Virus record (IMG/VR): IMGVR_UViG_3300020439_000101
Coordinates: 1-21,236 of that record
Direction: 5' to 3' (one strand)
Length of the DNA stretch: 21,236 nt
DNA from: a virus
Shown here: positions 1,374-20,616 of the stretch, one piece after another
Numbering within the stretch: position 1 is the stretch's first letter
How the letters are laid out: each line of letters begins with the position of its first letter
The notes under the pieces: generated by a model
Told to the model about the DNA's origin: nothing
Seen by the model: only the letters and a program-made list of their open reading frames with translations
The model's database searches: none
Position numbers and translations under genes: made by a program

Positions 1374-2591
1374 ATGAAATCAAGTATTGAATTAAAAGAA
1401 TTGAGATCAGATTACATTTCTAAGCTTGAAGTTATCAAAGAAACTTGCAAAGCTGAAGAAAGAGATTTGACTTCAGATGAAAATACTGAGATGGATTCAA
1501 TCCTTTCAAAGATTGATGATGTTGATGTAAAAATTGAAAGAGCTGAAAAAATTGAGGCTAATTTAAGAAACGCTGCAAAAGTTTCAGGTGTTAAAGTTGA
1601 AACTAAAAAAGACAAAGACCTTGACAAATTTACTTTCCAATCAGCTGTGAGAGCTGCTTACACAGGTAACATGGAAGGAATTGTTAAGGAAATGCATGAA
1701 GAAGCAATCAACGAAACTAGATACACAGGTGGGACTGTTAAAGGAGTTGGAATACCATCTTCAATCTTAACAAGAGCTTGGACAACTGCTGATGTTAACG
1801 CTACAGAAGTGATGTCTTTTACTGACCAATTAGAAGGAAACTTAGTTTTAGCTTCTGCGGGTGCTAACTTCTACTCTGGAATCAACAACATGAAGTTTCC
1901 TGTTTTCTCTGGAATAACTTCAACTTTCGTTGCTGAGGATGGGACAGGTGCTCCTTCATCTGCTGGTAACACAGGGAATGTAACTTTATCTCCAAAGAAA
2001 TTAATCTCTGTTGTTAACATGACTCAAGAGTCAATGATTCAGAACACAGGTCTTGAGGCTGCTCTACAAAGAAACATGGCTGCTTCTATTGCTTCTACTT
2101 TAGAGAAAGCTTTATTAGACACTTCTGATGTTTCTCAAGCTCCAGCATCAATCTTTGCTGACGCTGCTACAGGACCAACAGATGTAACTGCTGCAGATTG
2201 GCTTTCTATGGAAACTACTGTTTTAGAAGCTGGAGTTCAATTAGAAGGTTCAAGAATGGCTTACTTATTAGATACAACAGCTTATGGAGTTGTTAAAGCA
2301 TTAGCACAAGTTTCTAATGTTTCTCCAATTTGGGATAATGCAGACAAGAGATTAAATGGTTACTTTGCATTTGTTTCTCCTAATGTTGCTGAGAACGGAA
2401 CTGCTGCAAAAAGTCATGCTCTATTTGGGGACTTCTCAAAAGTTCACATTGCACAATTTGGTGGATTAGACATATTGTTTGACCCATACACAAATGCTGC
2501 TTCTGGACTTCCAAGATTAGTTGTTACATCATTAGTTGATGGAAACGCTGTTCAAAATGGTTCAGCTTTCGTTAATTTAATTGATGCATAA
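1374..2591 (+). CDS. Major capsid protein (HK97 fold)
   Basis: This protein forms the icosahedral shell. At 405 residues it has the usual HK97-family layout. Residues 1 to about 75 are a charged, helical delta domain that acts as internal scaffold and is normally removed by the protease encoded just upstream; cleavage somewhere after the run of Lys and Asp near residues 78-86 is my inference. The rest is the shell domain, with typical features such as SGANFYSGINNMKFPV-type strands, the helix with MTQESMIQNTGLEAALQRN, and a C-terminal GDFSKVHIAQFGGLDILFDPY segment. The start is preceded by an A-rich stretch (AAATAAGAAAA) rather than a Shine-Dalgarno site. A hairpin terminator follows the stop. 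Confidence 0.95.
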   Translation: MKSSIELKELRSDYISKLEVIKETCKAEERDLTSDENTEMDSILSKIDDVDVKIERAEKIEANLRNAAKVSGVKVETKKDKDLDKFTFQSAVRAAYTGNMEGIVKEMHEEAINETRYTGGTVKGVGIPSSILTRAWTTADVNATEVMSFTDQLEGNLVLASAGANFYSGINNMKFPVFSGITSTFVAEDGTGAPSSAGNTGNVTLSPKKLISVVNMTQESMIQNTGLEAALQRNMAASIASTLEKALLDTSDVSQAPASIFADAATGPTDVTAADWLSMETTVLEAGVQLEGSRMAYLLDTTAYGVVKALAQVSNVSPIWDNADKRLNGYFAFVSPNVAENGTAAKSHALFGDFSKVHIAQFGGLDILFDPYTNAASGLPRLVVTSLVDGNAVQNGSAFVNLIDA

Positions 2592-2610
2592 TTTAATTAT
2601 ATAACTTTAG

Positions 2611-2647
2611 AAAGGGGCTGGTTTTTATTAGCCAGCTCCTTTTTTTT
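2611..2647 (+). terminator. Rho-independent terminator after the capsid gene
   Basis: An 8-bp stem GGGGCTGG (2614-2621) pairs with CCAGCTCC (2632-2639), with one G-U pair, and is extended by AAA with TTT. The loop is short and T-rich and a run of eight T follows. No promoter is obvious before the next gene, so part of transcription probably reads through. That would give high capsid mRNA and lower levels of the connector genes. Confidence 0.85.
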
Positions 2648-2659
2648 AAAACAATAAAA

Positions 2660-3238
2660 ATGTATAGAAGTTTAAAAGAAAATACTTTAGCAACAAATCC
2701 TTTATTCACTACATCTGAAGCAAAAGATTTTTTGAAAGTTGACACCACTGCTGATGACACTTTGATTGACAACCTGATTAAAGCTGCAACTCAATCTTGT
2801 GAGGTTTACACTAATAGATATTTTCTTGACACTTTAGTCACTCAATATGCAGACAAATGGTCTGATATTAATACTCTATACAAAAGCCCCGTTTCATCAA
2901 TTACTCACATAAAATATTATGATTCAAATGATTCATTGCAAACATTAGACACTTCTGTTTATTTATTAGATGAAGTTTCTCAACCTGCAAGAATCGGATT
3001 GAAACCAAATCAATCATTTCCAAACCTAGCTGATAGAATTAATGCAATAGAGGTAAAATACACAGTTGGATATGGAGAAACATCAAGTGATGTTCCTGAA
3101 GGAATAAGGCAAGCTGTTCTGATCACAATTGGAAATTGGTATGAAAACAGACAAACAGTTGTTACAGGAACAATTGCAACAGAACTTCCATTGTCTAGTC
3201 AATATTTATTGAACCAATATAAAGTTCAAGTATGTTAA
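2660..3238 (+). CDS. Head-tail connector (gp6-like adaptor)
   Basis: This 192-residue protein has the pattern of phage gp6/YqbG-type connectors, which form the ring beneath the portal. The N-terminus carries TSEAKDFLKVD...DDTLIDNLIKAATQSCEVYTNR, the helical start typical of the family. The middle is beta-rich (SPVSSITHIKYYD...LQTLDTSVYLLDE), followed by the conserved IEVKYTVGYGET segment, VPEGIRQAVLITIGNWYENR and a C-terminal PLSSQYLLNQYK. It sits right after the capsid gene, as in HK97-type genomes. Its stop overlaps the next start by 7 bases, which suggests coupled translation. Confidence 0.9.
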   Translation: MYRSLKENTLATNPLFTTSEAKDFLKVDTTADDTLIDNLIKAATQSCEVYTNRYFLDTLVTQYADKWSDINTLYKSPVSSITHIKYYDSNDSLQTLDTSVYLLDEVSQPARIGLKPNQSFPNLADRINAIEVKYTVGYGETSSDVPEGIRQAVLITIGNWYENRQTVVTGTIATELPLSSQYLLNQYKVQVC

Positions 3239-3561
3239 GTATTGGACAATTAGATAGAAGAATAAAAATATTAGAGCCTTCCTATACAAGGAACAAGTAT
3301 GGAGAGGAATCAAAAACATATGCTTTGATTTACACATTGTGGGCAAAAGTAGATTGGAAATCAAGCAACAGAAAAGAAGAATCACAAGAACAAACAAACA
3401 GAACTGATGTTGTTTTTTATGTTAGAAATTTAGGAGTTGATATTTTAACAACATACAGAATAGAATATGAAAGTGAAACTTACATCATTCATGGAATTAA
3501 ACAAATAGAAGGAAGGGAAAGAATGTTGGAAATAGCAACTAGAATAAAAGATAATCAATGA
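3232..3561 (+). CDS. Head-tail stopper / head closure protein
   Basis: This 109-residue protein of the SPP1 gp16-like head-tail joining family binds under the connector and seals the packaged DNA. It shows the family start (IGQLDRRIKILEPSYTRNKYG), a central LWAKVDWKSS strand, the N-R-T-D-V-V-F-Y-V strand and the end (YIIHGIKQIEGRERMLEIATR). Length and position, third after the capsid gene, are as expected. The start lies inside the end of the connector gene. The stop and next start share ATGA. Confidence 0.9.
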   Translation: MLSIGQLDRRIKILEPSYTRNKYGEESKTYALIYTLWAKVDWKSSNRKEESQEQTNRTDVVFYVRNLGVDILTTYRIEYESETYIIHGIKQIEGRERMLEIATRIKDNQ

Positions 3562-4076
3562 GTGGAGTTAGTGTAGAAGCGCAAGGGTTGAAAGAGATTG
3601 ACCAAATGTTCAGACAACTTCCAAAACAAGTTAGTCAAGATGTGATATGGGGAAGGTTTTGGAGAAAGGTTTCAAAACCATTAAAAGAGGCCGCTGCTGG
3701 AAATGTTAAAGATGCACCAAAAGATATTCCATATCCTCCAGACACTTCTTTAAAAATTAGAAAGGGAACATTAAGAGAATCTATTCAGTTTTATAGAACT
3801 AGAGCCAGCAAAAAAGTTTATGGTGGTTATGTAGGCCCAAGAGTAAAAGGAAAGTTCAGAAAAAACAAAGGTGGATATTATGGAGCGTGGGTTGAATACG
3901 GACATAAAACAGTTCATGGAAAAATGACAAAAGACAATCCTTTCATGGAAAAAGCTTTTAAAAGTAAAAGTGGAACAGTTTTGTCAAATGGATTTAAAGA
4001 CGCTGAAAAAATATTTGTGAGTGCAGTAAAATCACATGAAAGAAGATTAAAAAAATACGGAACATTAGGATTTTAA
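3558..4076 (+). CDS. HK97 gp10-like neck/tail completion protein
   Basis: This 172-residue protein resembles the HK97 gp10 family, located at the neck or head-tail joining region. Recognisable parts are the N-terminal VEAQGLKEIDQMFRQLPKQV helix, AAAGNVKDAPKD, the GTLRESI segment, and YYGAWVEYGH...NPFMEKAF, which is the most diagnostic stretch. The C-terminus is strongly basic. It overlaps the stopper gene by 4 bases, and its stop directly abuts the ATG of the next gene. Confidence 0.88.
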   Translation: MSGVSVEAQGLKEIDQMFRQLPKQVSQDVIWGRFWRKVSKPLKEAAAGNVKDAPKDIPYPPDTSLKIRKGTLRESIQFYRTRASKKVYGGYVGPRVKGKFRKNKGGYYGAWVEYGHKTVHGKMTKDNPFMEKAFKSKSGTVLSNGFKDAEKIFVSAVKSHERRLKKYGTLGF

Positions 4077-5171
4077 ATGGATATAGGAAAAGCAATATAT
4101 AAAATTTTAAGTGATAACATTGCAGTTAGTTCAATGGTAGGAACAAGAATTTCTCCAAATGTAATGAAACAAACATCTCCATTTCCTTTTATTGTTTATG
4201 ATGTTAGTTCAGCAGAACCAGAAGGACAAAAGGATTCTGTTGCATTATTAGACACGGTTGATGTGATGGTTTCAGCTTATTGCAAAACATACTCAGAGGC
4301 TTCTAAATTAGCTAACTATATAAGAACAGCTTTGGACAGAGTGAATGGGGTTTATAATGCAGTAAACATTCAAGCAATTGATTTTGATGGTTATGATGAT
4401 GTTTTTGATGATATGTCTGGAAGTGATGGAATTTACAGAAAGTCTCTTAATTTTAATGTTAGAGTAATAAATTCATTTAACAATATTTATTCAACTTTAT
4501 TTGATGGAGTTGATGACTTTGTTTCATTAGGAGTTTCTGGTTTTGGAGCTGTTAAAAATCATGGTTCAATTTCTGCTTGGTTCAAGTTGGAAACAACTTC
4601 AGCAAGTGGGGACATCATGAGAATTTTTGAGGATTCAAATAACAACATAAGAGTTTTTTATCACAATCCTTCATCTGAATTGAGATGTGTTTATAAAGCG
4701 GGAGGAATAACAACATCTGCTGTTTTAACTGATGTAATTGAAGGAGATGGAAATTGGCACCATGTGGTTGGAACATGGGACAATAACACGGGAGACGCTG
4801 TTGCAATTTACTTAGATGGAGTTTTAAAACAATCAACAAGTGGAGTCAGTGGAACATTTACAGGAACATTCACATCAGCTTCTATTGGAAACAATGCAGA
4901 GGGTGGGGGATTCTGGAAAGGAAATATTGATGAAGTTGTTTTATTCAACAAAGCGTTGGATTCAACAGAAGTTTCTGATCTTTACAATGATGGACTTCCT
5001 TTCAATCCACAGCCTTTGAATGATATTGTTGGATATTGGAAAATGGGAGATGGTGGCATTGTAGGAAATCCAATTGCAACATTCCCAACAATTGTTGATG
5101 AAATTGGAAATCACAACGGGACAATGACTAACATGACATCAACTGATTTTGTTGCTGATGTTCCAGAATAA
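4077..5171 (+). CDS. Tail terminator (DUF3168-like) fused to a LamG-like domain
   Basis: The first 133 residues look like a tail terminator/completion protein of the gp17/DUF3168 type: IGKAIYKILSDN, VGTRISPNVM, FPFIVYDV, a helix with YSEASKLANYIRTALDRV, and LNFNVRV as the last strand. Normal members end there at about 120-140 residues. Here about 230 more residues follow directly, forming a LamG/concanavalin-A-like beta-sandwich (about 137-325). Its hallmarks are TLFDGVDDFVSLG, SISAWFKLE, DGNWHHVVGTWDN, AIYLDGVLKQS, FWKGNIDEVVLFNKAL and a closing GYWKMGDG. The terminator forms a ring at the top of the tail tube, so the added domain would probably sit outside the neck and may bind host or matrix glycans. 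No frameshift or internal stop is present; base use is similar across the junction. Confidence 0.85.
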   Translation: MDIGKAIYKILSDNIAVSSMVGTRISPNVMKQTSPFPFIVYDVSSAEPEGQKDSVALLDTVDVMVSAYCKTYSEASKLANYIRTALDRVNGVYNAVNIQAIDFDGYDDVFDDMSGSDGIYRKSLNFNVRVINSFNNIYSTLFDGVDDFVSLGVSGFGAVKNHGSISAWFKLETTSASGDIMRIFEDSNNNIRVFYHNPSSELRCVYKAGGITTSAVLTDVIEGDGNWHHVVGTWDNNTGDAVAIYLDGVLKQSTSGVSGTFTGTFTSASIGNNAEGGGFWKGNIDEVVLFNKALDSTEVSDLYNDGLPFNPQPLNDIVGYWKMGDGGIVGNPIATFPTIVDEIGNHNGTMTNMTSTDFVADVPE

Positions 5172-5175
5172 AGAT

Positions 5176-5409
5176 ATGGAAAAAAAGTATGTTATAACAA
5201 ATAGAAACGAGGTTGAGGCGATTGATTTCAAACAAGTTATTGAAACATCTCCTGCAACTTTAAGATATAGTTTGGATGGAAATAAAACAATAGTTAAATT
5301 TATTGGAGACGTTCCTTCATTTTTAGAAGGTTCAACAATTTATTCTCATTCGGAAATAATTAAAATTATTAACAATCCTGATAATGGTTGGATTGACATA
5401 AATGAATAG
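5176..5409 (+). CDS. Small hypothetical protein in the tail gene cluster
   Basis: This is a 77-residue protein starting at ATG 5176, four bases after the terminator gene stop; an in-frame TTG at 5149 lies inside that gene and is a poorer start. I do not recognise a family. The sequence begins EKKYVITNRNEVEAIDF and contains alternating beta-like stretches (ATLRYSLDGNKTIVKFIGDVP) ending in an acidic tail. It has no membrane segment and no signal peptide. Its place between tail terminator and major tail protein suggests a minor virion or assembly role, which is inference only. Confidence 0.65.
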   Translation: MEKKYVITNRNEVEAIDFKQVIETSPATLRYSLDGNKTIVKFIGDVPSFLEGSTIYSHSEIIKIINNPDNGWIDINE

Positions 5410-5411
5410 AT

Positions 5412-5585
5412 ATGAAATTTGAATTAAAAAGAAGATATGTTGTTAACTCAATAAAAACTTTGGAAGCCGGAGCAGTTATTGATGTAACAGAAGAAAAATA
5501 TAAGTGGCTTGAAGAAAATGGATATGGAGAGCCAGAAGAAAAAAAAGAAAAGAAAACAAAGAGAAGTTCAAAGAAGGAACAATAA
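5412..5585 (+). CDS. Small SH3-like phage protein with basic tail
   Basis: This 57-residue protein has a short N-terminal part (KFELKRRYVVNSIKTLEAGAVIDVTEEKYKWLEENGYGE) and a lysine- and arginine-rich tail. The layout of a short beta hairpin, then 'AGxVIDVTEExxxWLxxxG', resembles small phage proteins often found near head-tail genes in many tailed phages. I recognise the pattern but not a defined function. It begins 2 bases after the previous stop, and 31 A-rich bases separate it from the major tail gene. Confidence 0.65.
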   Translation: MKFELKRRYVVNSIKTLEAGAVIDVTEEKYKWLEENGYGEPEEKKEKKTKRSSKKEQ

Positions 5586-5616
5586 CAGAATTATAAATTT
5601 ATAAAATAGAAAAAAA

Positions 5617-6051
5617 ATGGCAAATGGACAATTAAATGGAACGGACCTTGGCGTTTATATTGCGGGAACTTTGGTGGCTTATAGCACTAATGCGACAATC
5701 AATATCAATCACAGTCCACGTTCTACAACAAACAAAGAATCTGGTGGGTTTGAAGAAAACATGGAAGGTTTAAGAAATTGGGATGTAAGTGTTGACGCTT
5801 TATATGCTTGGTTAGACCCTTCAGGCTCTGCAATTTCAAATGAAACTTTAAGTGAAATATTTACAGGATATTTAGCAACAAGAACAAAGTTTGAATTAAC
5901 ATTTGGAGTTACTACAACAGGAACAGGAGACACAAAATATGTTGGAGACGCTTGGTTGACTTCAATTAGTTTAACTGCACCTCTTGAGGACACAGCAACT
6001 TTCAGCTGTAGTTTTCAAGGAACAGGAGCATTGACACAAACTATTTCTTAA
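5617..6051 (+). CDS. Major tail tube protein
   Basis: This 144-residue protein builds the non-contractile tail tube. It has the TP901-1-like major tail protein pattern: the N-terminal NGTDLGVYIAGTLVAYSTNATI, then SPRSTTNKESGGFEE and LRNWDVSVDALYAW, then a C-terminal strand pair with DAWLTSISLTAPLEDTATFSCSFQGTGAL. Length and position, between tail terminator and tape measure, fit. The leader is purely A/T with a run of eight A before ATG, the strong Bacteroidota-style start context. A long hairpin terminator follows. Confidence 0.92.
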   Translation: MANGQLNGTDLGVYIAGTLVAYSTNATININHSPRSTTNKESGGFEENMEGLRNWDVSVDALYAWLDPSGSAISNETLSEIFTGYLATRTKFELTFGVTTTGTGDTKYVGDAWLTSISLTAPLEDTATFSCSFQGTGALTQTIS

Positions 6052-6064
6052 TAGTTACAATAAT

Positions 6065-6113
6065 AGCCTGCCTGACCGTTTTCTTTTCTGAGTGGTTGGG
6101 TGGGCTTATTTTT
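6065..6113 (+). terminator. Rho-independent terminator after the major tail gene
   Basis: A 13-bp stem forms between AGCCTGCCTGACC (6065-6077) and GGTTGGGTGGGCT (6094-6106), with four G-U pairs and a 16-base loop, followed by TATTTTT. As after the capsid gene, it probably trims transcription after a high-output gene while some polymerase reads through into the tail-assembly genes. Confidence 0.8.
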
Positions 6114-6142
6114 AAAAACAGAAAAGACAAAACTTAGAAAAA

Positions 6143-6484
6143 ATGAAATACGAAATTTTAGAAATCGGGGAACATAAAATGCCAATAAGATTTGGATTTA
6201 ACGCTTTGAGAAAGTATAGTGTAATGACAGGAGCTACAATAAATGACTTAAACAAATTAGCAGAAGGAAAAATGACTTTCAATGATGCTTTTAGTTTAAT
6301 TTATTGTGGATTGGAGGATGGTTACAGAGCTGCAAAACAACCTTTTCACTATTCATTGGATGATGTTACAGACATGTTTGATGGACATATGGATTGCATG
6401 GAACAAGCGTTTGAAATCTTAGGAAGAGCAATGGGAGAGAAGTCCGAAAAAAAGAACAAAGCCAAGAAAGTAAGGAAGAGCTAA
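6143..6484 (+). CDS. Tail assembly chaperone, short (G-like) form
   Basis: This is the first of two overlapping-frame tail chaperone proteins between major tail and tape measure genes, like lambda gpG. It has 113 residues and starts KYEILEIGEHKMPIRFGFNALRKYS, a pattern I know from tail chaperones of Bacteroidota phages. It is helical in the middle and ends in a short lysine-rich tail (EKKNKAKKVRKS). The slippery heptamer A AAA AAG lies in frame at 6448-6454, ten codons before its stop. A minority of ribosomes should slip back one base there to make the GT fusion. Confidence 0.85.
   Translation: MKYEILEIGEHKMPIRFGFNALRKYSVMTGATINDLNKLAEGKMTFNDAFSLIYCGLEDGYRAAKQPFHYSLDDVTDMFDGHMDCMEQAFEILGRAMGEKSEKKNKAKKVRKS
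6448..6454 (+). promoter_or_regulatory. -1 programmed frameshift site (A AAA AAG)
   Basis: The zero-frame codons are GAA AAA AAG, so the heptamer A-AAA-AAG is in exactly the phase needed for tandem -1 slippage. The -1 frame then reads GAA CAA AGC CAA and stays open to the stop at 6801, through the whole downstream chaperone frame. That downstream frame has no ATG near its beginning. A GGGAGAG stretch (6433-6439) lies 8 bases upstream and could act like the internal Shine-Dalgarno stimulator of dnaX. That role is uncertain, since Bacteroidota ribosomes make little use of such sites. Confidence 0.85.
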
Positions 6485-6801
6485 CTTGGCGTAAATTGGA
6501 AAAGATAGCATTCGGACAATTGGGAATGAATGTTGATGATTTTTATGATATGCTTCCAAGAGAGTTCTGGAATAAGGTTGAGGGATTTTATGAGTTGGAA
6601 AACATGAGACAAAGAAGTGATTGGGAAAGGACAAGATGGTCAACCTGTTTATTGTTGAACATACAAATCCAAAAAGGTAAAAGAATAAAACCACAGGACT
6701 TGATTTTGTTTGATTGGGAGAAGGATGAAAAGAAAATTGATTTTGAAGATTTAAAAGCGAAAGCAGAACTATATAAAAAAAGATTAGAACATGGCAAGTA
6801 A
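6454..6801 (+). CDS. Tail assembly chaperone, T part of the GT frameshift product
   Basis: This is the -1 frame that follows the slip site; the full GT protein would run 6143-6454 and then 6454-6801, about 219 residues. The T part reads EQSQESKEELTWRKLEKIAFGQLGMNVDDFYDMLPREFWNKVEGF, then a helix with MRQRSDWERTRW, matching the T domains I know, which bind the tape measure protein. The only start codon available near its beginning is a TTG at 6496 inside a conserved-looking segment, so independent translation is unlikely. It overlaps the tape measure start by 11 bases. Confidence 0.82.
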   Translation, partial: EQSQESKEELTWRKLEKIAFGQLGMNVDDFYDMLPREFWNKVEGFYELENMRQRSDWERTRWSTCLLLNIQIQKGKRIKPQDLILFDWEKDEKKIDFEDLKAKAELYKKRLEHGK

Positions 6802-8725
6802 AGCAATTGGATTTTTAAATTTTAAGTTTGGAGCCGACTTAGGAGGATTTGAAAGAGCAATGAAAAAAGCTGAAAGAAATCTCAAAAAGTTTGGAAAAAA
6901 CATTCAGAAAACAGGAAAAAATCTAACAACAGGATTAACACTCCCAATAGTTGCATTAGGTGCTGCAAGCGTAAAAGCTTTTGATGAACAACAAAAAGCA
7001 ATTGCACAGGTTGAGGCTGGTTTAAAATCAACAGCTCAAGTTGCTGGATTTACTTCAGAAGAACTTCAAAAAATGGCTGCTGATTTACAAAAAACTTCAT
7101 TGTTTGGAGATGAAGAAATTTTGAAAAATGCAACAGCTCAACTTTTAACATTCACAAACATAACAGGAGAACAATTTGAAAAAACTCAGAAAATTGCTTT
7201 AGATTTAGCAACTAGATTGGATGGAGATTTAAAGTCGGCTTCAATTATGTTAGGAAAAGCTTTAAACGACCCTGTTGCAAATCTTAGTGCATTAAGTAGA
7301 GCGGGAATACAATTTTCAGCAGACCAAAAACAATTGGTTAACTCATTAGTTGAAACAGGGAACATTGCTGAAGCTCAAACAATTATTTTAGAGGAATTAG
7401 AGAAACAATATGGAGGAAGTGCAGAAGCTGCAAGAAAAGCGGGATTAGGACCTATTCAGGCCTTGCAAAACACTTTAAGTGATTTATCCGAACAAATAGG
7501 GGAAAGATTGCTTCCTGTTATAACAAAGTTCACAGAATTTATTGTTGGATTGATGCAGAAGTTTGATAATTTATCCCCAAAAACAAAAGATTTTGTTGTT
7601 GCAATTGGTTTAATGGTTGCTGGAATAGGACCTTTATTGATTTTGATTGGAAAAATGTCTATTGGTGTGGTTGCTTTAAGTGGAGCTTTTAGAACATTGA
7701 CAGCCGTAATGACAAAAAATCCAATTGGATTGATTGCTGTCGCTTTAACAACTGCGTTGGGAGCTTGGTATTCATACAATGAAATTGTAAAAGCAACAAC
7801 AAGGTCTCAAAACGCTTTTAATGGAGTTGCTGAGTCAACTGATGACGCTGTTAAAAGAATCACAAAAAGTGTAACAGGAATGGGAAAAGACGCTTTCCAA
7901 ACCCAAATTGACGAAATTAATGACTTAATTAATACAATAAAAGGATTTGAAATTAAAGAAAGTCAATTTACAAAAGGAGTTAAATTAAGTGAAAAGCAAA
8001 CAAAACAAATTCAGGATTTGAACATGCTTTTGTTTAGACTCAAAAAGAGACAAGCAGAATCAAAAGAAGAGGCTGAGAAACTCAAAAAAACTTTTGGAGA
8101 GTTAAGCACCGGCACTGATGAACTAACAGAGTCAACTAAACAATATTCAGAAGCGTTAAAAGTTGTTGTTTTTGACACTTCCTTATATCAGAAAAGTGCA
8201 ATTGAGGACCAATTTAAAAACATAGTAGTATGGACTAAAACACTAACACAAGAACAAAAATTGGCAATTGAAGGATTTAAAATGTTTGGAGATGTTGTTA
8301 CAAGTTCATTAGACCAAGCTTTGAGTTCCCAAGAAAAATTCTTTCCACTTTTTATTGAAAACCTTAAAAAAGCAATTAAACAATTGTTGGTTCAAGCGGC
8401 AGTGATGACTGTTATTGCTTCAATAATGCCAACAAGCTTAGCGGGAAGCAGTGGGCTTTCTACAAATTTTGTGACAAACTTAGGATCAATATTGGGAGTA
8501 TCTGAATTTGCTCAAGGTGGATTGGTTACAGGCCCAACTTTAGGATTGATTGGAGAGGGTATTGGAACAACAGCTTCAAATCCAGAGGTTATTGCTCCAT
8601 TAGATAGATTAAAACAATTTATGGAAGGTGGAACTCAAAATGTAGTAGTTGAAGGAGTTATCAAAGGAAATGATATATTTTTAAGTAATAGAAACACAGG
8701 TTATAACAGACAAAGAAGCGTTTAA
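6791..8725 (+). CDS. Tail tape measure protein
   Basis: This 644-residue protein sets tail length and is ejected with the DNA. The start is typical: IGFLNFKFGADLGGFERAMKKAERNLKKFGKNIQKTGKNLTTGLTLP-type helix, then an alanine- and lysine-rich coiled region, then GKALNDPVANLSALSRAGIQFS, a common tape measure segment. Hydrophobic stretches lie near residues 264-300 and 312-328 and again near 530-550. The C-terminus ends with the FAQGGLVTGPTLGLIGEG...EVIAPLDRL motif seen at the ends of many tape measure proteins. At about 0.15 nm per residue the tail would be around 95-100 nm, an estimate from the general rule. It overlaps the tail-tip gene by one base. Confidence 0.93.
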   Translation: MASKAIGFLNFKFGADLGGFERAMKKAERNLKKFGKNIQKTGKNLTTGLTLPIVALGAASVKAFDEQQKAIAQVEAGLKSTAQVAGFTSEELQKMAADLQKTSLFGDEEILKNATAQLLTFTNITGEQFEKTQKIALDLATRLDGDLKSASIMLGKALNDPVANLSALSRAGIQFSADQKQLVNSLVETGNIAEAQTIILEELEKQYGGSAEAARKAGLGPIQALQNTLSDLSEQIGERLLPVITKFTEFIVGLMQKFDNLSPKTKDFVVAIGLMVAGIGPLLILIGKMSIGVVALSGAFRTLTAVMTKNPIGLIAVALTTALGAWYSYNEIVKATTRSQNAFNGVAESTDDAVKRITKSVTGMGKDAFQTQIDEINDLINTIKGFEIKESQFTKGVKLSEKQTKQIQDLNMLLFRLKKRQAESKEEAEKLKKTFGELSTGTDELTESTKQYSEALKVVVFDTSLYQKSAIEDQFKNIVVWTKTLTQEQKLAIEGFKMFGDVVTSSLDQALSSQEKFFPLFIENLKKAIKQLLVQAAVMTVIASIMPTSLAGSSGLSTNFVTNLGSILGVSEFAQGGLVTGPTLGLIGEGIGTTASNPEVIAPLDRLKQFMEGGTQNVVVEGVIKGNDIFLSNRNTGYNRQRSV

Positions 8726-11700
8726 TGGCATTAGGAAAAAAATACTATATTGACTACAAGTCAATGGCTAATGAGGATTTCACATTAGAAATCTGGGTTG
8801 AAGGTTCAACAGTTGCTGCAACAGAAATAAATCTTGGAAGTTCTGGTCCTGAAATAAAATATGAAACAAGCAATCAAGAAAAGTTTTCATACATTCTGGC
8901 TAGTTCTTTAGACATTCCTTTCATGGTTGAAAACACAGGACAAGCTGATTTCATTCAAGATTTAAGAGATGGAACTTTGGAGGAAAAAGATGTTTATGTT
9001 CATTTATATAATGATAGAGATACAGCAAGACCTTTGTGGAGTGGATTTTTGATTATGGACTTGGCTGCTCAAGAGGATGTTTCTTTTCCTTATGAGGTCA
9101 AATTAACTGCAATTGATGGACTTTCCTTATTAAAGGATGAACCATTTGTAAGAGACACAAATTTGGAAACAGGAAATCCTGTGACTTTTCCATATGATGT
9201 CAATGATGTTTATTGGAATAACTACACAAAAATAACTAATTGGATTGAAATAATATTAGCAAAAACAGGATCAGCTTTAACTGCTCAAGGTTCAAATGCA
9301 AACTATACTTATAAAACTTCTGTAAATTGGTATAACTCCGAAATGCCAAGCACAGGACAAGCTGATGATCCTTTATTTTGGACACAATGCAAAATGAACT
9401 CTTTATATACAAGAGATGAAAATGGTATTTACACTCCAAAATCAACATATGAAGTTTTAGAAGCTTTGTGTAAAAATTGGGGAATGAGATGTGTTTATTG
9501 GCACCACACCTTTCACTTTGTTCAAATTGCAGAATATGAAGCGGACGAATCGGGAACTCCAACAGTTCCTGTTAACATACCAACTAGAGAATATTTTTAC
9601 ACAGGTAGCAGAAGGCTTGATCAAGCTCATATTGGAGAACAAAACTTTGGACAATATGATTTGCAATTTGAAAATGTTACTAATGTAAACAATGCGGGAC
9701 TTCAAAAATTAGCTGGAACACAATATGATTTTTATGCTCCTATAAAAAGAATTATTGGAAATTTTCAAGTTTTTGCAGATGAAAACCAATTTCAAGGATT
9801 TCCAGAATTAGACCAAACAACAGACACAGGAGATTTAATTTATTCAAAAGCAATTGCAACTTACACTGATGCTAGTGATATGGATGGTTTTTATTGTCAA
9901 ATTCCATTAATATTCACAAATATAAAAGCACAATCACAGGGAACAGGATTGGGGGGGTTGCCGAGGGTTCTAAACATGCATCTTTGTTTCAGTATAAGAG
10001 CAAGAGAAGAGGGAACAACTCCATGGACAAAAATGCTTAATGAATCAGGTTCAACCTTATCATGGGTAACTTATACGGCTCCAACTTCAACAAATGGAGT
10101 TCCAGATGATATGATTAACAAAATTCTGACTTATATTCCAATTGGAACAAGTCAAAGGACAATTTTTGATTCTGGGTCTTATAACAACGGAATAATTCCA
10201 ACAGATTCAGCTTTCACAGGAGCTTGGGAGTTTGAATTTTTTACTTATACAGATGCGGTAGATGTAGAAAATATAAATTATCATGGAGAAATTAAAACAC
10301 CAACTAATCACATAATGTCTAGAGCTGGGGACCCAGAAACTGTTTTCAATTATTCAGATGTTTTTGATTCAAACAATAATTTCACAGGAATATTTGCTCA
10401 AATTGCGGCTGGTTCTATTGGTAACAATTCAACAAACACAGAATATACAACCTCAACCTCTGATTCCTATACTGTAAAAATAGAAAATTTATATTGGGGA
10501 GATAGTCCTTTAGTTGACAACGCTTCTGCTTTAAGAGTTTGGAATGGTTCTGCATTTGTTAAAGCGGATGCAAGTGGAGATTGGGGGAAAGGAACTTTGT
10601 CTGGAACAGATAATTTCAACAAACTTCTTGCAACAGAAATCATGAAATGTCAACATATAGCTTCTCAAAGAATGAACGTGACTTCTGCATTAAGTGAAAC
10701 AGATAAATTGACCTCAACAAAGTTAAAAATGGTTAATCCTGTAGGGAGGTTGAAAGACATAAATTCTGAAAAATATGTTTTTTTAAGTGGAACTTACAAC
10801 ACTTTAAAAGATGAATGGAATGGGGTTTGGTTCCAATTTACTTATGACACTGGCCTTGTAGTTACAACAGCCGACCCCGTTGGAACGGGTGGGCCTCATT
10901 CTGGTCCTGTTTTAGGCGGGGGGAATCAAGGAAGTAGTCAAGGAAATGGAGCTCAAATGAGTTGGGTTCCTTGGGGTGCCACTGAAGTCAATCAAAGGAT
11001 TTCTGCTGGTGCAATAACATCAATCAACATTGATCCTATTGGAGAAGAAATTATTTATTCAGGAGATAGAATTTATATAACAGATGACAAAAGTGGTCAA
11101 ACATTAGAATTTGAAGTTTCTGCTGATGTTGCAAGAACTGACACCACAATTTCAACTGTTGAAAATACCATAACAGATGACATCAGAGAAGGGTCTATTG
11201 TGGGAATAGACAACAAAAATTTATTTCAACAATACCAAAGAAAAACTGAAGGTTCTGTTGGTGGAATGCCGATCACTTCAGATTCAATTGGAAAATATGA
11301 AATCAAGAGTGGGGACTATTATATGGTTGGAGTGGACACTCTTTATGTTAAAATACTTCCATCAGATTTCATGGTAAATGATGACGCTTCAAGTCCTGAC
11401 ATCACTCCAGCTGTTTTTGGAGATGGAACAAACACAGGGGTTTCAGTAGAAAACACAGCTCAGGAACTTATTGCAACAGTAAACATTCCAAGTGGAACAT
11501 CAGCAACAGAAGTTTATATTTGGGGAAGCAACACAACCAAATCTGTTGAGGTTTATAAAATGGATATTAATGCAAATGGAAAAGGCTCAACAGTGGGAAC
11601 AGGAACAACAGATGGTTCAGCAATAAGCATTGGAACAATTGCTTCATCTGATACAAATTATTTAATGATAAAAGTTTTAGTTTCATCTACAAATCATAGA

Positions 11701-11736
11701 ATTTGGGGTGGAAAGGTAACATTAACACAAAATTAA
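8725..11736 (+). CDS. Large tail-tip / host-recognition protein
   Basis: This 1003-residue protein lies directly after the tape measure, the place of distal tail and baseplate hub genes. The N-terminal 135 residues (FTLEIWVEGSTVAATEINL, then SLDIPFMVEN, LWSGFLIMDLAAQE, VKLTAIDGLSLLKD) look like the beta-rich domain that attaches tail-tip proteins of Bacteroidota phages. A long middle section is rich in Asn, Thr and aromatic residues. A glycine-rich linker near 716-740 leads to a C-terminal beta-rich tail with repeated short strands and a final IWGGKVTLTQN. It probably combines tube-end, hub and receptor-binding roles, since no separate fibre gene follows. No enzymatic motif was seen. The exact function is inferred from position. 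Confidence 0.78.
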   Translation: MALGKKYYIDYKSMANEDFTLEIWVEGSTVAATEINLGSSGPEIKYETSNQEKFSYILASSLDIPFMVENTGQADFIQDLRDGTLEEKDVYVHLYNDRDTARPLWSGFLIMDLAAQEDVSFPYEVKLTAIDGLSLLKDEPFVRDTNLETGNPVTFPYDVNDVYWNNYTKITNWIEIILAKTGSALTAQGSNANYTYKTSVNWYNSEMPSTGQADDPLFWTQCKMNSLYTRDENGIYTPKSTYEVLEALCKNWGMRCVYWHHTFHFVQIAEYEADESGTPTVPVNIPTREYFYTGSRRLDQAHIGEQNFGQYDLQFENVTNVNNAGLQKLAGTQYDFYAPIKRIIGNFQVFADENQFQGFPELDQTTDTGDLIYSKAIATYTDASDMDGFYCQIPLIFTNIKAQSQGTGLGGLPRVLNMHLCFSIRAREEGTTPWTKMLNESGSTLSWVTYTAPTSTNGVPDDMINKILTYIPIGTSQRTIFDSGSYNNGIIPTDSAFTGAWEFEFFTYTDAVDVENINYHGEIKTPTNHIMSRAGDPETVFNYSDVFDSNNNFTGIFAQIAAGSIGNNSTNTEYTTSTSDSYTVKIENLYWGDSPLVDNASALRVWNGSAFVKADASGDWGKGTLSGTDNFNKLLATEIMKCQHIASQRMNVTSALSETDKLTSTKLKMVNPVGRLKDINSEKYVFLSGTYNTLKDEWNGVWFQFTYDTGLVVTTADPVGTGGPHSGPVLGGGNQGSSQGNGAQMSWVPWGATEVNQRISAGAITSINIDPIGEEIIYSGDRIYITDDKSGQTLEFEVSADVARTDTTISTVENTITDDIREGSIVGIDNKNLFQQYQRKTEGSVGGMPITSDSIGKYEIKSGDYYMVGVDTLYVKILPSDFMVNDDASSPDITPAVFGDGTNTGVSVENTAQELIATVNIPSGTSATEVYIWGSNTTKSVEVYKMDINANGKGSTVGTGTTDGSAISIGTIASSDTNYLMIKVLVSSTNHRIWGGKVTLTQN

Positions 11737-15093: not shown

Positions 15094-15480
15094 ATGACAA
15101 AAAAAGAAAGATTAAATTCACTATATAAAGACAACTCTTTAACAAAAGAGGATGTTTACACTGACAAGAGAGGATTTACTATAATAACAAGATCTGGAAT
15201 TGAACAAATCCAATGGAACAATAAAATTGATGTAAGGTTTGAAATCATAAGTTCAGAACTTGGAAACATTATAATCAAAGCAACTTCTTTTCAAGATGGA
15301 GAAAGAAAATGTGAAACTTATGGATCAGCTTCAAAAGATAACTGTTTTCAGAAGTTTCCTGTTGAAATTGCTGAGAAAAGGGCTTTGGCTCGTGTAATTA
15401 TTAAAACTATGGGTCTAACGAACACTTTGGGAATAGATGAGGTTGACTTTCAAATCAATAAAAAAACCAAAGCAGAATGA
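15094..15480 (+). CDS. Candidate single-strand annealing or recombination accessory protein
   Basis: This 128-residue protein begins with a helical stretch (KKERLNSLYKDNSLTKEDVYTDKRGFTIITRSGIEQIQ), then paired strands (DVRFEIIS, NIIIKATSFQDGERKCETYG) and a helix, FPVEIAEKRALARVIIKTMGL. The GYPVEMAEKRAxxRxILKxxG-type ending is one I know from small phage proteins encoded just before RecB-like nucleases, and resembles the core of Rad52/ERF-type annealing proteins. It overlaps the nuclease start as ATGA, which ties the two together as a two-component recombination pair. The annealing role is inferred from this context. Confidence 0.6.
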   Translation: MTKKERLNSLYKDNSLTKEDVYTDKRGFTIITRSGIEQIQWNNKIDVRFEIISSELGNIIIKATSFQDGERKCETYGSASKDNCFQKFPVEIAEKRALARVIIKTMGLTNTLGIDEVDFQINKKTKAE

Positions 15481-16223
15481 AAATAAGTCAATCTATGCTC
15501 AGAGATTTTTACAATCCTGAATATTGCAAAATAAAATGGGAGGAAGTTTATTTAAATAACTTCAGAACAAAACCAAGCGACGCAATGTTAGATGGATTGG
15601 TGTTTGAACAAAATGTAATTGGAGAAAGTAGAGGTGGAGAAGTTTACGAAATACCAAAAGGAAAGACAGGAAAACCATTAAAAAGAGAAACAGACCTTCT
15701 TTTATTAGCTGAGAAGTCAAAACAGATGTTAAAGGATTTGGAGATTGAATTAATTGAAGTTCAACCTGAATGGGAAACAGATGATCTTATTGGACATCCA
15801 GACGCTTTAATAAAGTATAAAGGAGAACTTGCAATAATGGACTTGAAATATACATCAATGAAAGAAGATGAAAATTGCAAATGGAATCCTTATGGTTGGT
15901 CTAATTTAGTTGATGAAAATACGGGAGAGGTTTACAAGGATTTTACTCAGGCCATTCACTATATAGAAATGTATTATCAAATGAAAGGAGTTTATCTTCC
16001 ATTTTTTTATGTTATTTTTGGAAAATCTGGATGGAGCAAATTTGTTTTGGTTGAAGCGTCAAAAGAAAAGATTGAAGAACACAGAAACAAAATAAAACGA
16101 TTTAAAAAGGATTTAAAGAACTTTAAGCCATTTGGGGTGGACAACTACTCAATTTGCAGAAAATGTCCTGTAATGTGTGATAAAAGGGTTTTAAAACCAA
16201 ATCTTATTGAAATACTATACTAA
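15477..16223 (+). CDS. PD-(D/E)XK exonuclease with probable 4Fe-4S cluster (RecB/Cas4-like)
   Basis: This 248-residue nuclease shows the PD-(D/E)XK order: an N-terminal GLVFEQN helix, IGHPDALIKYKGEL with Asp109, AIMDLKYT with Asp122 and Lys124, and the QAIHY helix (Gln158...Tyr162) typical of RecB/Cas4/AddB nucleases. Cys17 near the start and Cys227, Cys230 and Cys234 near the end have the one-plus-three spacing that holds the 4Fe-4S cluster in AddB, Cas4 and Dna2. It probably resects double-stranded ends for the annealing partner encoded upstream. Its stop overlaps the next start as TAATG. Confidence 0.82.
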   Translation: MKISQSMLRDFYNPEYCKIKWEEVYLNNFRTKPSDAMLDGLVFEQNVIGESRGGEVYEIPKGKTGKPLKRETDLLLLAEKSKQMLKDLEIELIEVQPEWETDDLIGHPDALIKYKGELAIMDLKYTSMKEDENCKWNPYGWSNLVDENTGEVYKDFTQAIHYIEMYYQMKGVYLPFFYVIFGKSGWSKFVLVEASKEKIEEHRNKIKRFKKDLKNFKPFGVDNYSICRKCPVMCDKRVLKPNLIEILY

Positions 16224-16613: not shown

Positions 16614-16928
16614 ATGAAAATTACAGGAAAATTAGCAAAAGTGCTAGACAGACAAACAGGAATTTCAAAAGCTGGAAAAGAATGGCAAAAACAGAGTTTT
16701 GTTTTGGACACAGGTTCGGACTTTAACAATGAGATTTGTATTGACACTTTTGGAGAAAAAATTGAATTGATCCAGAGCTTAAAAATTGGAGCAAACATTG
16801 AAGTCAAATTAAATGTTAGTTCTAAAGAATTTAAAGGGAGATATTATCATAACATCTCAGCTTGGGAAATTAATTTAATTGATGGAGTTGCAGACCATAA
16901 TGTTGAATCTGATGAAATGCCGTTCTAA
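16614..16928 (+). CDS. Single-strand DNA-binding protein, DUF3127 type
   Basis: This 104-residue OB-fold protein has the pattern of DUF3127, the SSB-like family common in Bacteroidota and their phages: ITGKLAKVLDRQTGISKAGKEWQKQSFVLDT, then ICIDTFGEKIELI, then KGRYYHNISAWEINLI. The final DEMPF is an acidic tip like the DDDIPF end by which SSB contacts partner proteins. It coats single strands in replication and in nuclease-plus-annealing recombination. It starts 1 base after the previous stop; its TAA overlaps the next ATG. Confidence 0.85.
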   Translation: MKITGKLAKVLDRQTGISKAGKEWQKQSFVLDTGSDFNNEICIDTFGEKIELIQSLKIGANIEVKLNVSSKEFKGRYYHNISAWEINLIDGVADHNVESDEMPF

Positions 16929-17299: not shown

Positions 17300-17940
17300 T
17301 GAAAATAAAAAGAATACAAAAGAGTAAAAACTACTCAATCATTTCAAATGAAATATTGAAAAGAAAAGATTTGAGTTTGAAAGCAAAAGGATTAATGAGT
17401 TTGATCTTATCACTTCCAGATGATTGGGATTTGAATGTGAATGGTTTGGTTAAGATTGTAAAAGAGTCAAAAAACACATTATACTCAATTTTAAAAGAAC
17501 TTAATAGTTTCGGATATGTAGAAAGAAAAAGAATAACAGATAATTCAGGAAAAGTTCTTAAATGGGAGTTAATTGTTTATGAAAAACCACATCCCAAAAA
17601 ACCAGATCCCAAAAAACCAGATGTGGAAAATTGCTCACAAGTAAATACTAATATAAAACAAAATACTAATTTAACAAAGCACAATAAAGAAAAATTTTCA
17701 ATTCAAGTTTTTGAGATGGGTATTTTAAACAAAGAGGAGTCAAACAATTTCATTGATTATTGGTCCGAAAAAAACAAGAAGGGAAAAATGAGGTGGGAAC
17801 TTCAAAAGACTTGGGATTTAAGTTTGAGAATGAAAAGATGGAAAAGAACTTCCAAGAGTTCAGGAAGGTCAAAAATAGAAAATCAAATGAGTGCTCATTA
17901 TGGGGCTTTGGAATTATTGGAAAAGAAATATGGGAATTAA
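17299..17940 (+). CDS. Replication initiator-like winged-helix protein
   Basis: This 213-residue protein starts at ATG 17299 (TGATG overlap); a TTG directly before is not needed. Residues 1-95 form a winged helix of the kind found in phage and plasmid replication proteins: NYSIISNEILKRKDLSLKAKGLMSLIL, LNVNGLVKIVKESKNTLYSILKEL, FGYVERKR. A linker with tandem PKKPD repeats (98-108) and Asn-rich sequence follows. The C-terminal part, FIDYWSEKNKKGKMRWELQKTWDLSLRMKRWKR, is a segment I know from such HTH replication proteins. The linker DNA carries tandem direct repeats beside AT-rich sequence, as in lambda O. It probably binds the origin and loads host replication proteins. Confidence 0.75.
   Translation: MKIKRIQKSKNYSIISNEILKRKDLSLKAKGLMSLILSLPDDWDLNVNGLVKIVKESKNTLYSILKELNSFGYVERKRITDNSGKVLKWELIVYEKPHPKKPDPKKPDVENCSQVNTNIKQNTNLTKHNKEKFSIQVFEMGILNKEESNNFIDYWSEKNKKGKMRWELQKTWDLSLRMKRWKRTSKSSGRSKIENQMSAHYGALELLEKKYGN
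17587..17670 (+). repeat. Candidate origin: tandem 15-base repeats and AT-rich region inside the initiator-like gene
   Basis: ATCCCAAAAAACCAG occurs twice head to tail (17591-17605, 17606-17620) and a third copy begins at 17621. The repeats are bracketed by CCACAT (17587-17592) and ATGTGG (17621-17626). TGTGGAAAA (17622-17630) is a relaxed DnaA box on the minus strand, although such relaxed matches are expected several times by chance in this window. AAATACTAAT follows twice (17643-17652, 17661-17670) in a very AT-rich run. Confidence 0.5.
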
Positions 17941-18556
17941 TTTATATAACAAGGATTGCATGGAGGCTTTGAAGGAATTTAAAGATAATCAATTTGATTT
18001 AGCTATAGTTGACCCTCCTTATGGAATTGGAGCGGGAAGTAAAAATTTTATAAATGGTAGTAGCAAAACAGAAAAAAACTATTTTAGAGAAAATGATTGG
18101 GACATAGCTCCTAAAAAAGAATATTTTAAGGAATTACAAAGAGTAAGTAAGAATCAAATAATTTGGGGGGGAAATTACTTTGTAGAACATTTACAGAATT
18201 TTAGATGTTTTATATTTTGGGACAAAACTATACACGGAAATAGTTATGCAGATGGTGAATTAGCTTGGACTTCTTTTAATAAAGTTGCAAGGTATTACAG
18301 AAAAAATATTGCACAAGTTACAATTGAAGGCAGAATGCATCCAACACAAAAACCAATAACTTTGTATGAATTTTTGCTAATGAACTATGCAAAAGAAGGC
18401 GATAAAATTCTAGATACTCATTTAGGAAGTGGAAGCATTGCGATTGCTTGCCATAATTTAGGATTTGATTTAGAAGGATTTGAGTTAGATACAGAATATT
18501 TTGAAGCGGCAAAAAAACGATTAAAACAACATCAATCTCAATTAAGAATATTATGA
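17930..18556 (+). CDS. Orphan DNA methyltransferase (DPPY type)
   Basis: This 208-residue methylase starts at ATG 17930, inside the end of the initiator-like gene. Motif order is catalytic DPPYG (28-32) first, then HPTQKP (137-142), then the S-adenosylmethionine-binding DTHLGSGS (162-169) and GFELDTEYFEAAKKRL. This is the beta-class layout of N6-adenine or N4-cytosine methylases. The target-recognition region between is short, about 100 residues, with AWTSFNK and WDKT. No restriction enzyme is adjacent, so it probably protects phage DNA from host enzymes or marks DNA for replication timing. Confidence 0.88.
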   Translation: MGINLYNKDCMEALKEFKDNQFDLAIVDPPYGIGAGSKNFINGSSKTEKNYFRENDWDIAPKKEYFKELQRVSKNQIIWGGNYFVEHLQNFRCFIFWDKTIHGNSYADGELAWTSFNKVARYYRKNIAQVTIEGRMHPTQKPITLYEFLLMNYAKEGDKILDTHLGSGSIAIACHNLGFDLEGFELDTEYFEAAKKRLKQHQSQLRIL

Positions 18557-19930: not shown

Positions 19931-20279
19931 AATTGTATTTGATGACAAAGCCAAATTCATTAATGACGTTTCTAAAATGTCAGATGGAATAAGAGTTGTT
20001 ATTGAAGTCAGAGAAGCCGAAAATGTAAGGACAAACAATCAAAACCGTTTGTGGTGGTCTTGGATGACTATAATTGCAGGGGAACTTGGTTATTCAAAAC
20101 AAGAGATTCATGATATTCTCAAATATAAGTTTTTATTAAAAGAAGAAATGATTGATGGGGAGATTTATCAAAGTTTAAAATCAACAACAACTTTAACAAA
20201 GGAAGAGTTTCAAAAACTTACTCAGGATGTTTTCTTTTGGGCAAACGATACGTTTAACATAAATCTTCCAAATGAGTGA
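19899..20279 (+). CDS. NinB-like recombination protein (TTG start)
   Basis: This 126-residue protein has the pattern of phage NinB-type recombination mediators: RVVIEVREAENVRTNNQNRLWWSWMTIIAGELGYSKQEIHDILKYKFL, where the R-T-N-N-Q-N-x-x-W-W-x core is diagnostic, and later FQKLTQDVFFWANDTFNINLPN. The start is TTG 19899 because the KHFGKIQKGKIVFDDKAKF segment upstream of the first ATG is conserved-looking. TTG is rare in this genome. The family binds single-stranded DNA in phage recombination. It overlaps the VRR-NUC gene by 8 bases. Confidence 0.75.
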   Translation: MKHFGKIQKGKIVFDDKAKFINDVSKMSDGIRVVIEVREAENVRTNNQNRLWWSWMTIIAGELGYSKQEIHDILKYKFLLKEEMIDGEIYQSLKSTTTLTKEEFQKLTQDVFFWANDTFNINLPNE

Positions 20280-20616
20280 AGAAAGATTACAGTCAGAAGT
20301 TGTGAAATATATTCGGTTACAATACCCGAAAGTTAGATTTTGTGCTTCATTAGGTGGAATATATACAGGACCAAGACAAGCATCCAAAGCAAAGAGAACA
20401 GGTTATTCAAGAGGGTTTCCTGATCTACAAATATGTGAGGCTAGAAATGGTTATCATGGATTGTTTATTGAAATAAAAACACATAAGGGCAGAGCAACAG
20501 AAGTTCAAAAGGAATGGATTGATGCACTTAATGAAAGAGGATATAAAGCAGAGATATGTAAAGGACTTCCAGCTATATTGGATTTGATAGATAATTACTT
20601 AAATGAAAAAAGTTAG
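20272..20616 (+). CDS. VRR-NUC domain nuclease
   Basis: This 114-residue protein is a stand-alone VRR-NUC nuclease of the PD-(D/E)XK superfamily. Visible are an N-terminal ERLQSEVVKYIRL helix, GFPDLQI with Asp51, LFIEIKT with Glu67 and Lys69, and Q79KEW, then NERGYKAEICKG. Single-domain phage members are thought to resolve branched DNA such as Holliday junctions, clearing concatemers before packaging. It sits between the NinB-like and HNH-type genes, which together form a recombination/processing group. The start has ATG overlap with the NinB-like stop. Confidence 0.85.
   Translation: MSEERLQSEVVKYIRLQYPKVRFCASLGGIYTGPRQASKAKRTGYSRGFPDLQICEARNGYHGLFIEIKTHKGRATEVQKEWIDALNERGYKAEICKGLPAILDLIDNYLNEKS

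Follow-up and report, generated by a model that had tools for sequence, protein, structure and literature searches.

Studies of phage adsorption usually look to the tip of the tail. Modules of carbohydrate-binding type that lie away from the tip have been described in the 936 lactococcal phages, in the neck passage structure and in TpeX/MTP extensions; two of these neck and tail modules were shown to bind host cells, and they are variable and exchangeable between phages (PMC6669499). The locus described here, in a stretch of viral DNA from IMG/VR of 21,236 nucleotides (the window), likewise encodes a module of carbohydrate-binding type away from the tip. In the 936 phages the neck module is carried by a protein of its own, 500-900 amino acids long with a collar N-terminus and a helical stalk, and the modules are BppA-like, whereas the module in the window is attached to the tail terminator by a short linker, has a LamG fold, and is accompanied by a partner ORF.

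Appended beta-sandwiches on neck or tube proteins, spread by exchange, are also familiar as Ig-like domains–for example, the C-terminal domain of lambda gpV and the adaptor of roseophage R4C (PMC10276861, PMC10721106). Those decorations have an Ig fold and a different carrier, whereas the domain in the window is LamG/ConA-like and has a linked second gene. Terminators with an added domain likewise exist in myophages and PVC-like machines, but there the addition contacts the sheath or duplicates the terminator fold, and the available part of the source describes no lectin-type domain (PMC11784142). The protein family PHROG 347 contains LamG fusions and is annotated as tail terminator only, with no note of the LamG domain, of the empty site in unfused relatives or of the linked ORF. 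Literature searches, which covered few subscription journals, found no report of LamG-bearing phage terminators or of a LamG gene paired with a small ORF. Neck modules and extended terminators are already known; the pair is the more novel part.

Domains and genomic setting of the fusion protein

A single plus-strand ORF, beginning right after the stop codon of Neck1 at positions 4077-5171, encodes a fusion protein of 364 amino acids. Residues 5-130 match the Pfam family PF11367 (Tail_completion_gp17; E = 1e-9, above the curated cut-off) and residues 144-300 match PF13385 (Laminin_G_3; E = 3e-25, 89.4 bits against a curated cut-off of 27.6), so a terminator and a LamG domain do share one polypeptide, as had been predicted. 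The predicted extension of about 230 residues beyond the terminator was also the right size, the LamG part spanning residues 139-364. The protein matches PHROG 347, 'tail terminator' (E = 2e-43), the PF13385 match is present in 61 of the 70 rows of its alignment, and the whole 21,236-base record contains one match to it. The linker between the 133-residue terminator and the LamG domain is about 6 residues long, and a conserved C-terminal stretch, YWKMGD...NHNGTMTNM, belongs to the LamG domain. The features of the region are as follows.

2660-3238, + strand: head-tail adaptor (Ad1-like; PHROG 442/40)
3232-3561, + strand: head closure protein Hc1, the stopper (PHROG 25)
3558-4076, + strand: Neck1, tail completion protein (PHROG 5)
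4077-4475, + strand: tail terminator domain of the fusion, residues 1-133 (PF11367, PHROG 347, structure 6tba_4A); the unfused homologues L072-L075 end exactly here
4476-4490, + strand: junction or linker FNNIY, residues 134-138; lower pLDDT in the block of residues 131-140
4491-5168, + strand: LamG / ConA-like jelly-roll domain, residues 139-364 (PF13385, fold match, dN/dS)
5176-5409, + strand: 77-amino-acid ORF of no recognised family, the cassette partner (linkage to LamG; confident small fold)
5412-5585, + strand: 57-amino-acid Lys-rich ORF, the right flank of the insert; in unfused relatives its homologue comes immediately after the terminator
5617-6051, + strand: major tail protein (PF06199, PHROG 1407)
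6791-8725, + strand: tape measure protein (PHROG 27166)
8725-11736, + strand: probable tail tip, by its position behind the tape measure; 1003 amino acids

The order adaptor-stopper-Neck1-terminator-major tail protein-tape measure is the ordinary siphophage order, and family, fold and gene order all identify the terminator domain as a siphophage tail terminator of the gp17/gpU class. The 1003-residue probable tip protein has no Pfam match and no confident PHROG match, and we detected no LamG domain of the fusion's family in it. The window has no tRNAs. Its early region contains a weakly matching PD-(D/E)XK nuclease-like ORF of the Cas4/exonuclease type (15477-16223) and a VRR-NUC domain ORF (20272-20616), and a DNA N6/N4 methyltransferase ORF lies at 17891-18556. 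The suggestion that this is a Bacteroidota phage fared less clearly than the domain assignments: the tape measure protein matches those of Flavobacterium phages at 42%, but the match to roseophages is about as strong. The window also encodes a DUF3127 protein (16614-16928, E = 4e-25), from a family common in Bacteroidota, a weak hint of the host.

Structure prediction gave separate terminator and LamG folds, as anticipated. The AlphaFold model, made from the 70-row alignment, has a mean pLDDT of 88.7 and two domains joined by a weaker stretch at about residues 131-140. Residues 1-132 superimpose on the terminator of a gene transfer agent (GTA; 6tba_4A) with Z = 15.8 and an rmsd of 2.6 over 126 of 134 aligned residues; the LamG domain therefore begins where the GTA terminator ends. 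Residues 134-364 match LamG, pentraxin and CBM structures with Z of about 16-24 (top 23.7), among them the PAPP-A LamG domain, PTX3, C-reactive protein and AbnA domain 4, and also align to 4dqa, a putative carbohydrate-binding protein of B. ovatus. The added domain is thus not an Ig fold, the Pfam and fold matches being LamG/ConA-like instead. The LamG-type fold also serves non-binding roles.

A search of IMG/VR with the fusion found 103 related stretches, and about 60 distinct intact fusions occur in IMG/VR contigs. Chance and faults of assembly or ORF calling are ruled out by its presence, intact, in 60 distinct proteins from many distinct contigs. The two domains might instead be made as separate products, an unextended terminator and a free LamG protein, by internal initiation or proteolytic cleavage, and free-standing LamG genes do exist in other phages (L077 and L080). 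We consider this very improbable: the ORF in the window has no in-frame start codon near the terminator-LamG junction, the next methionine lying well inside the LamG domain, and none of the intact fusions (60 distinct proteins) has a stop or frameshift. One apparent free LamG product, in the related locus L061, is a disordered contig end and not a start.

The empty site and repeated capture of LamG

Unfused relatives of the window's terminator (L072-L075 and L129-L131) are 57-61% identical to it and end at residue 133. In one of them, L073, a 58-amino-acid ORF (3564-3740) starts 4 nucleotides after the terminator stop codon and is a homologue of the Lys-rich ORF at 5412-5585 of the window, so that the insert in the window relative to L073 is exactly the LamG domain plus the 77-amino-acid ORF (hereafter the small ORF). 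Among the unfused relatives that we searched, some with records as long as 17 and 26 kb (all possibly fragments), none showed either element. In a sister unfused lineage comprising 80 loci, every complete terminator has 136 or 138 amino acids, and none of the loci has a LamG domain or small ORF near the terminator.

Capture did not happen only once. In a tree of terminators the main fused clade is supported at 99/98, the fused terminators of L146 and L141 lie elsewhere, and the fused and unfused labels change three times. In a tree of LamG domains, built by a quick method, the terminator-borne domains fall in three places, again with three label changes, of which the starred branches force at least two. 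Both L141 and L146 lie in full neck gene order; L142 has a further terminator-LamG junction, its terminator being cut by the contig end. LamG has been captured by terminators at least twice, and probably three or more times.

Among 35 fusions, median dN/dS is 0.35 for the LamG part and 0.11 for the terminator (median dN 0.27 and 0.07), and dN/dS for the small ORF is 0.28, so terminator, LamG domain and small ORF are all under purifying selection. The faster change of the LamG part would be expected of a domain that faces the host, but relaxed constraint would give the same picture.

The phages that carry the fusion form an uncultured, mostly marine group. A tblastn search with three of the fusion proteins gave no such fusion in cultured phages, and none occurred as a prophage in 84,980 species genomes, where the scan gave only two distant LamG proteins. 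In the 394-position PHROG 347 profile, the segment 304-389 matches the LamG end of L141; fusions of this sort were therefore already in the public set. A BFVD entry, A0A516M548 (405 amino acids), aligns to the fusion over 379 columns and may be another public record of one.

A LamG gene and small ORF that travel together

Comparison of the small ORF with Pfam, PHROG and PDB gave nothing that rises above noise. Its predicted fold is confident (pLDDT 91.6). A homologue follows the free-standing LamG gene of L077. A scan that used only the small ORF as query yielded 247 relatives. In 65 of the 72 scored contexts that lie outside the window lineage, LamG is present in the gene immediately upstream; it is present in 15 of the 308 other ORFs of at least 150 amino acids in the same small-ORF loci, and in some contexts without an adjoining LamG there is one a gene away. 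In the reverse scan, with LamG alone, a small ORF directly follows the LamG ORF in 68 of 77 scored cases. These linkage counts come from related contigs and are not independent events, although the carriers and sequences are diverse. LamG is usually found on short fibre-like anchors (so called from the look of their N-terminal sequences), on tip proteins of 1267-1335 amino acids or as free-standing genes, and tandem LamG genes also occur. An N-x-Y-S motif recurs at the start of LamG in most carriers, unrelated ones included, and the 3' half of the cassette is conserved across unrelated carriers. We conclude that LamG and the small ORF (about 75 amino acids) form a travelling two-gene cassette, and that the window does not contain a one-off graft onto a terminator.

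Variants of the arrangement occur. In L081 (genome G001) the terminator is unfused, and LamG lies inside a 1335-amino-acid tip protein (2319-6326), with another in the next gene (6329-7741); this phage is of the same type and has the LamG module at the tip instead of the neck. In four loci of other phages (L148, L234, L242 and L286) two LamG genes stand in tandem with a small ORF behind each. Conversely, three loci keep the fusion and have no small ORF directly behind it (L002, L004 and L120, after positions 6095, 2650 and 2613, respectively) and none was found elsewhere in their records. L002 and L004 are 94% identical to the window's fusion protein. These are natural losses of the partner gene, and the small ORF is thus not strictly needed at the terminator site.

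Fibre-like anchors and tip proteins are the class of protein used for adsorption. The range of carriers suggests that phages reuse the LamG + small-ORF unit as a plug-in for sticking to cells. The same range, with its constant start motif and conserved 3' half, could also be produced by a near-neutral hitchhiker that spreads by recombination behind any virion gene and brings little benefit at the neck, and the absence of the cassette from sister lineages would fit. We think this distinctly unlikely, because about 60 distinct proteins keep the reading frame, LamG and the small ORF both have dN/dS values well under 1, and terminators recruited the cassette more than once.

Possible roles of the LamG domain at the neck

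The best explanation, and one that we hold to be probable though by a modest measure, is that a terminator carrying LamG from a mobile adhesin cassette acts as an auxiliary adhesin displayed at the neck. On this reading the terminator has acquired, at its natural C-terminus, a LamG-type lectin domain from a travelling two-gene adhesin cassette. Six copies of the terminator would seal the upper end of the tail tube, with roughly six LamG domains projecting around the neck, where they may bind cell-surface or extracellular polysaccharide weakly and hold the virion close to the cell until its tip meets the receptor. The small ORF would most likely encode an assembly helper or other dedicated LamG partner, made adjacent to it as tail-fibre chaperones are.

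These steps differ in what they rest on. The ring position and outward display of LamG are proposed by analogy with terminators that form a hexamer between the stopper and the tail tube (PMC7296036, PMC10721106); six added LamG domains should not fit in the channel, and we infer that they should therefore stand outside the neck. Outward display is not self-evident, because the C-terminus of the T5 terminator is located at the interface between subunits, and tagging it disturbed assembly (PMC11784142). Glycan binding by LamG is suggested by the modelled fold, and the small protein is a putative LamG partner. There are precedents for reversible binding of polysaccharide by parts other than the tip: host cells are bound by the neck passage CBMs of the 936 phages (PMC6669499), and capsule by the head spikes of RcGTA (PMC7296036).

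The LamG domains could instead form a structural collar that braces the junction of head and tail, or the first ring of the tail, without binding glycans, like the Ig-like neck domain of the R4C adaptor. The Ig-like domain at the R4C neck was judged by its authors to be structural and not adsorptive (PMC10276861), and extra domains of other terminators have structural tasks such as sheath contact (PMC11784142). We regard a collar as unlikely here: close relatives of the window phage join head and tail without LamG, the same LamG family occurs on fibre-like, tip and free-standing proteins, and LamG is far more variable than the terminator, unlike a contact surface.

Beyond the auxiliary adhesin at this neck, we tentatively propose, giving it slightly less than even weight, that LamG and the small ORF constitute a two-gene adhesin system of marine phages that has not previously been described. 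In it the small protein would be LamG's dedicated partner, which either helps it fold or blocks premature self-binding, and the pair would move from fibre or tip to neck, shifting where the particle binds glycans.

A lectin-type domain has become joined to an essential neck protein more than once, and it belongs to a pair of genes found repeatedly in different phages. Should that pair prove to be a real adhesin-plus-partner system, its small ORF would be a sequence marker for adhesins in uncultured phages, and the natural pairs of fused and unfused phages permit a direct test of what neck binding adds to infection.
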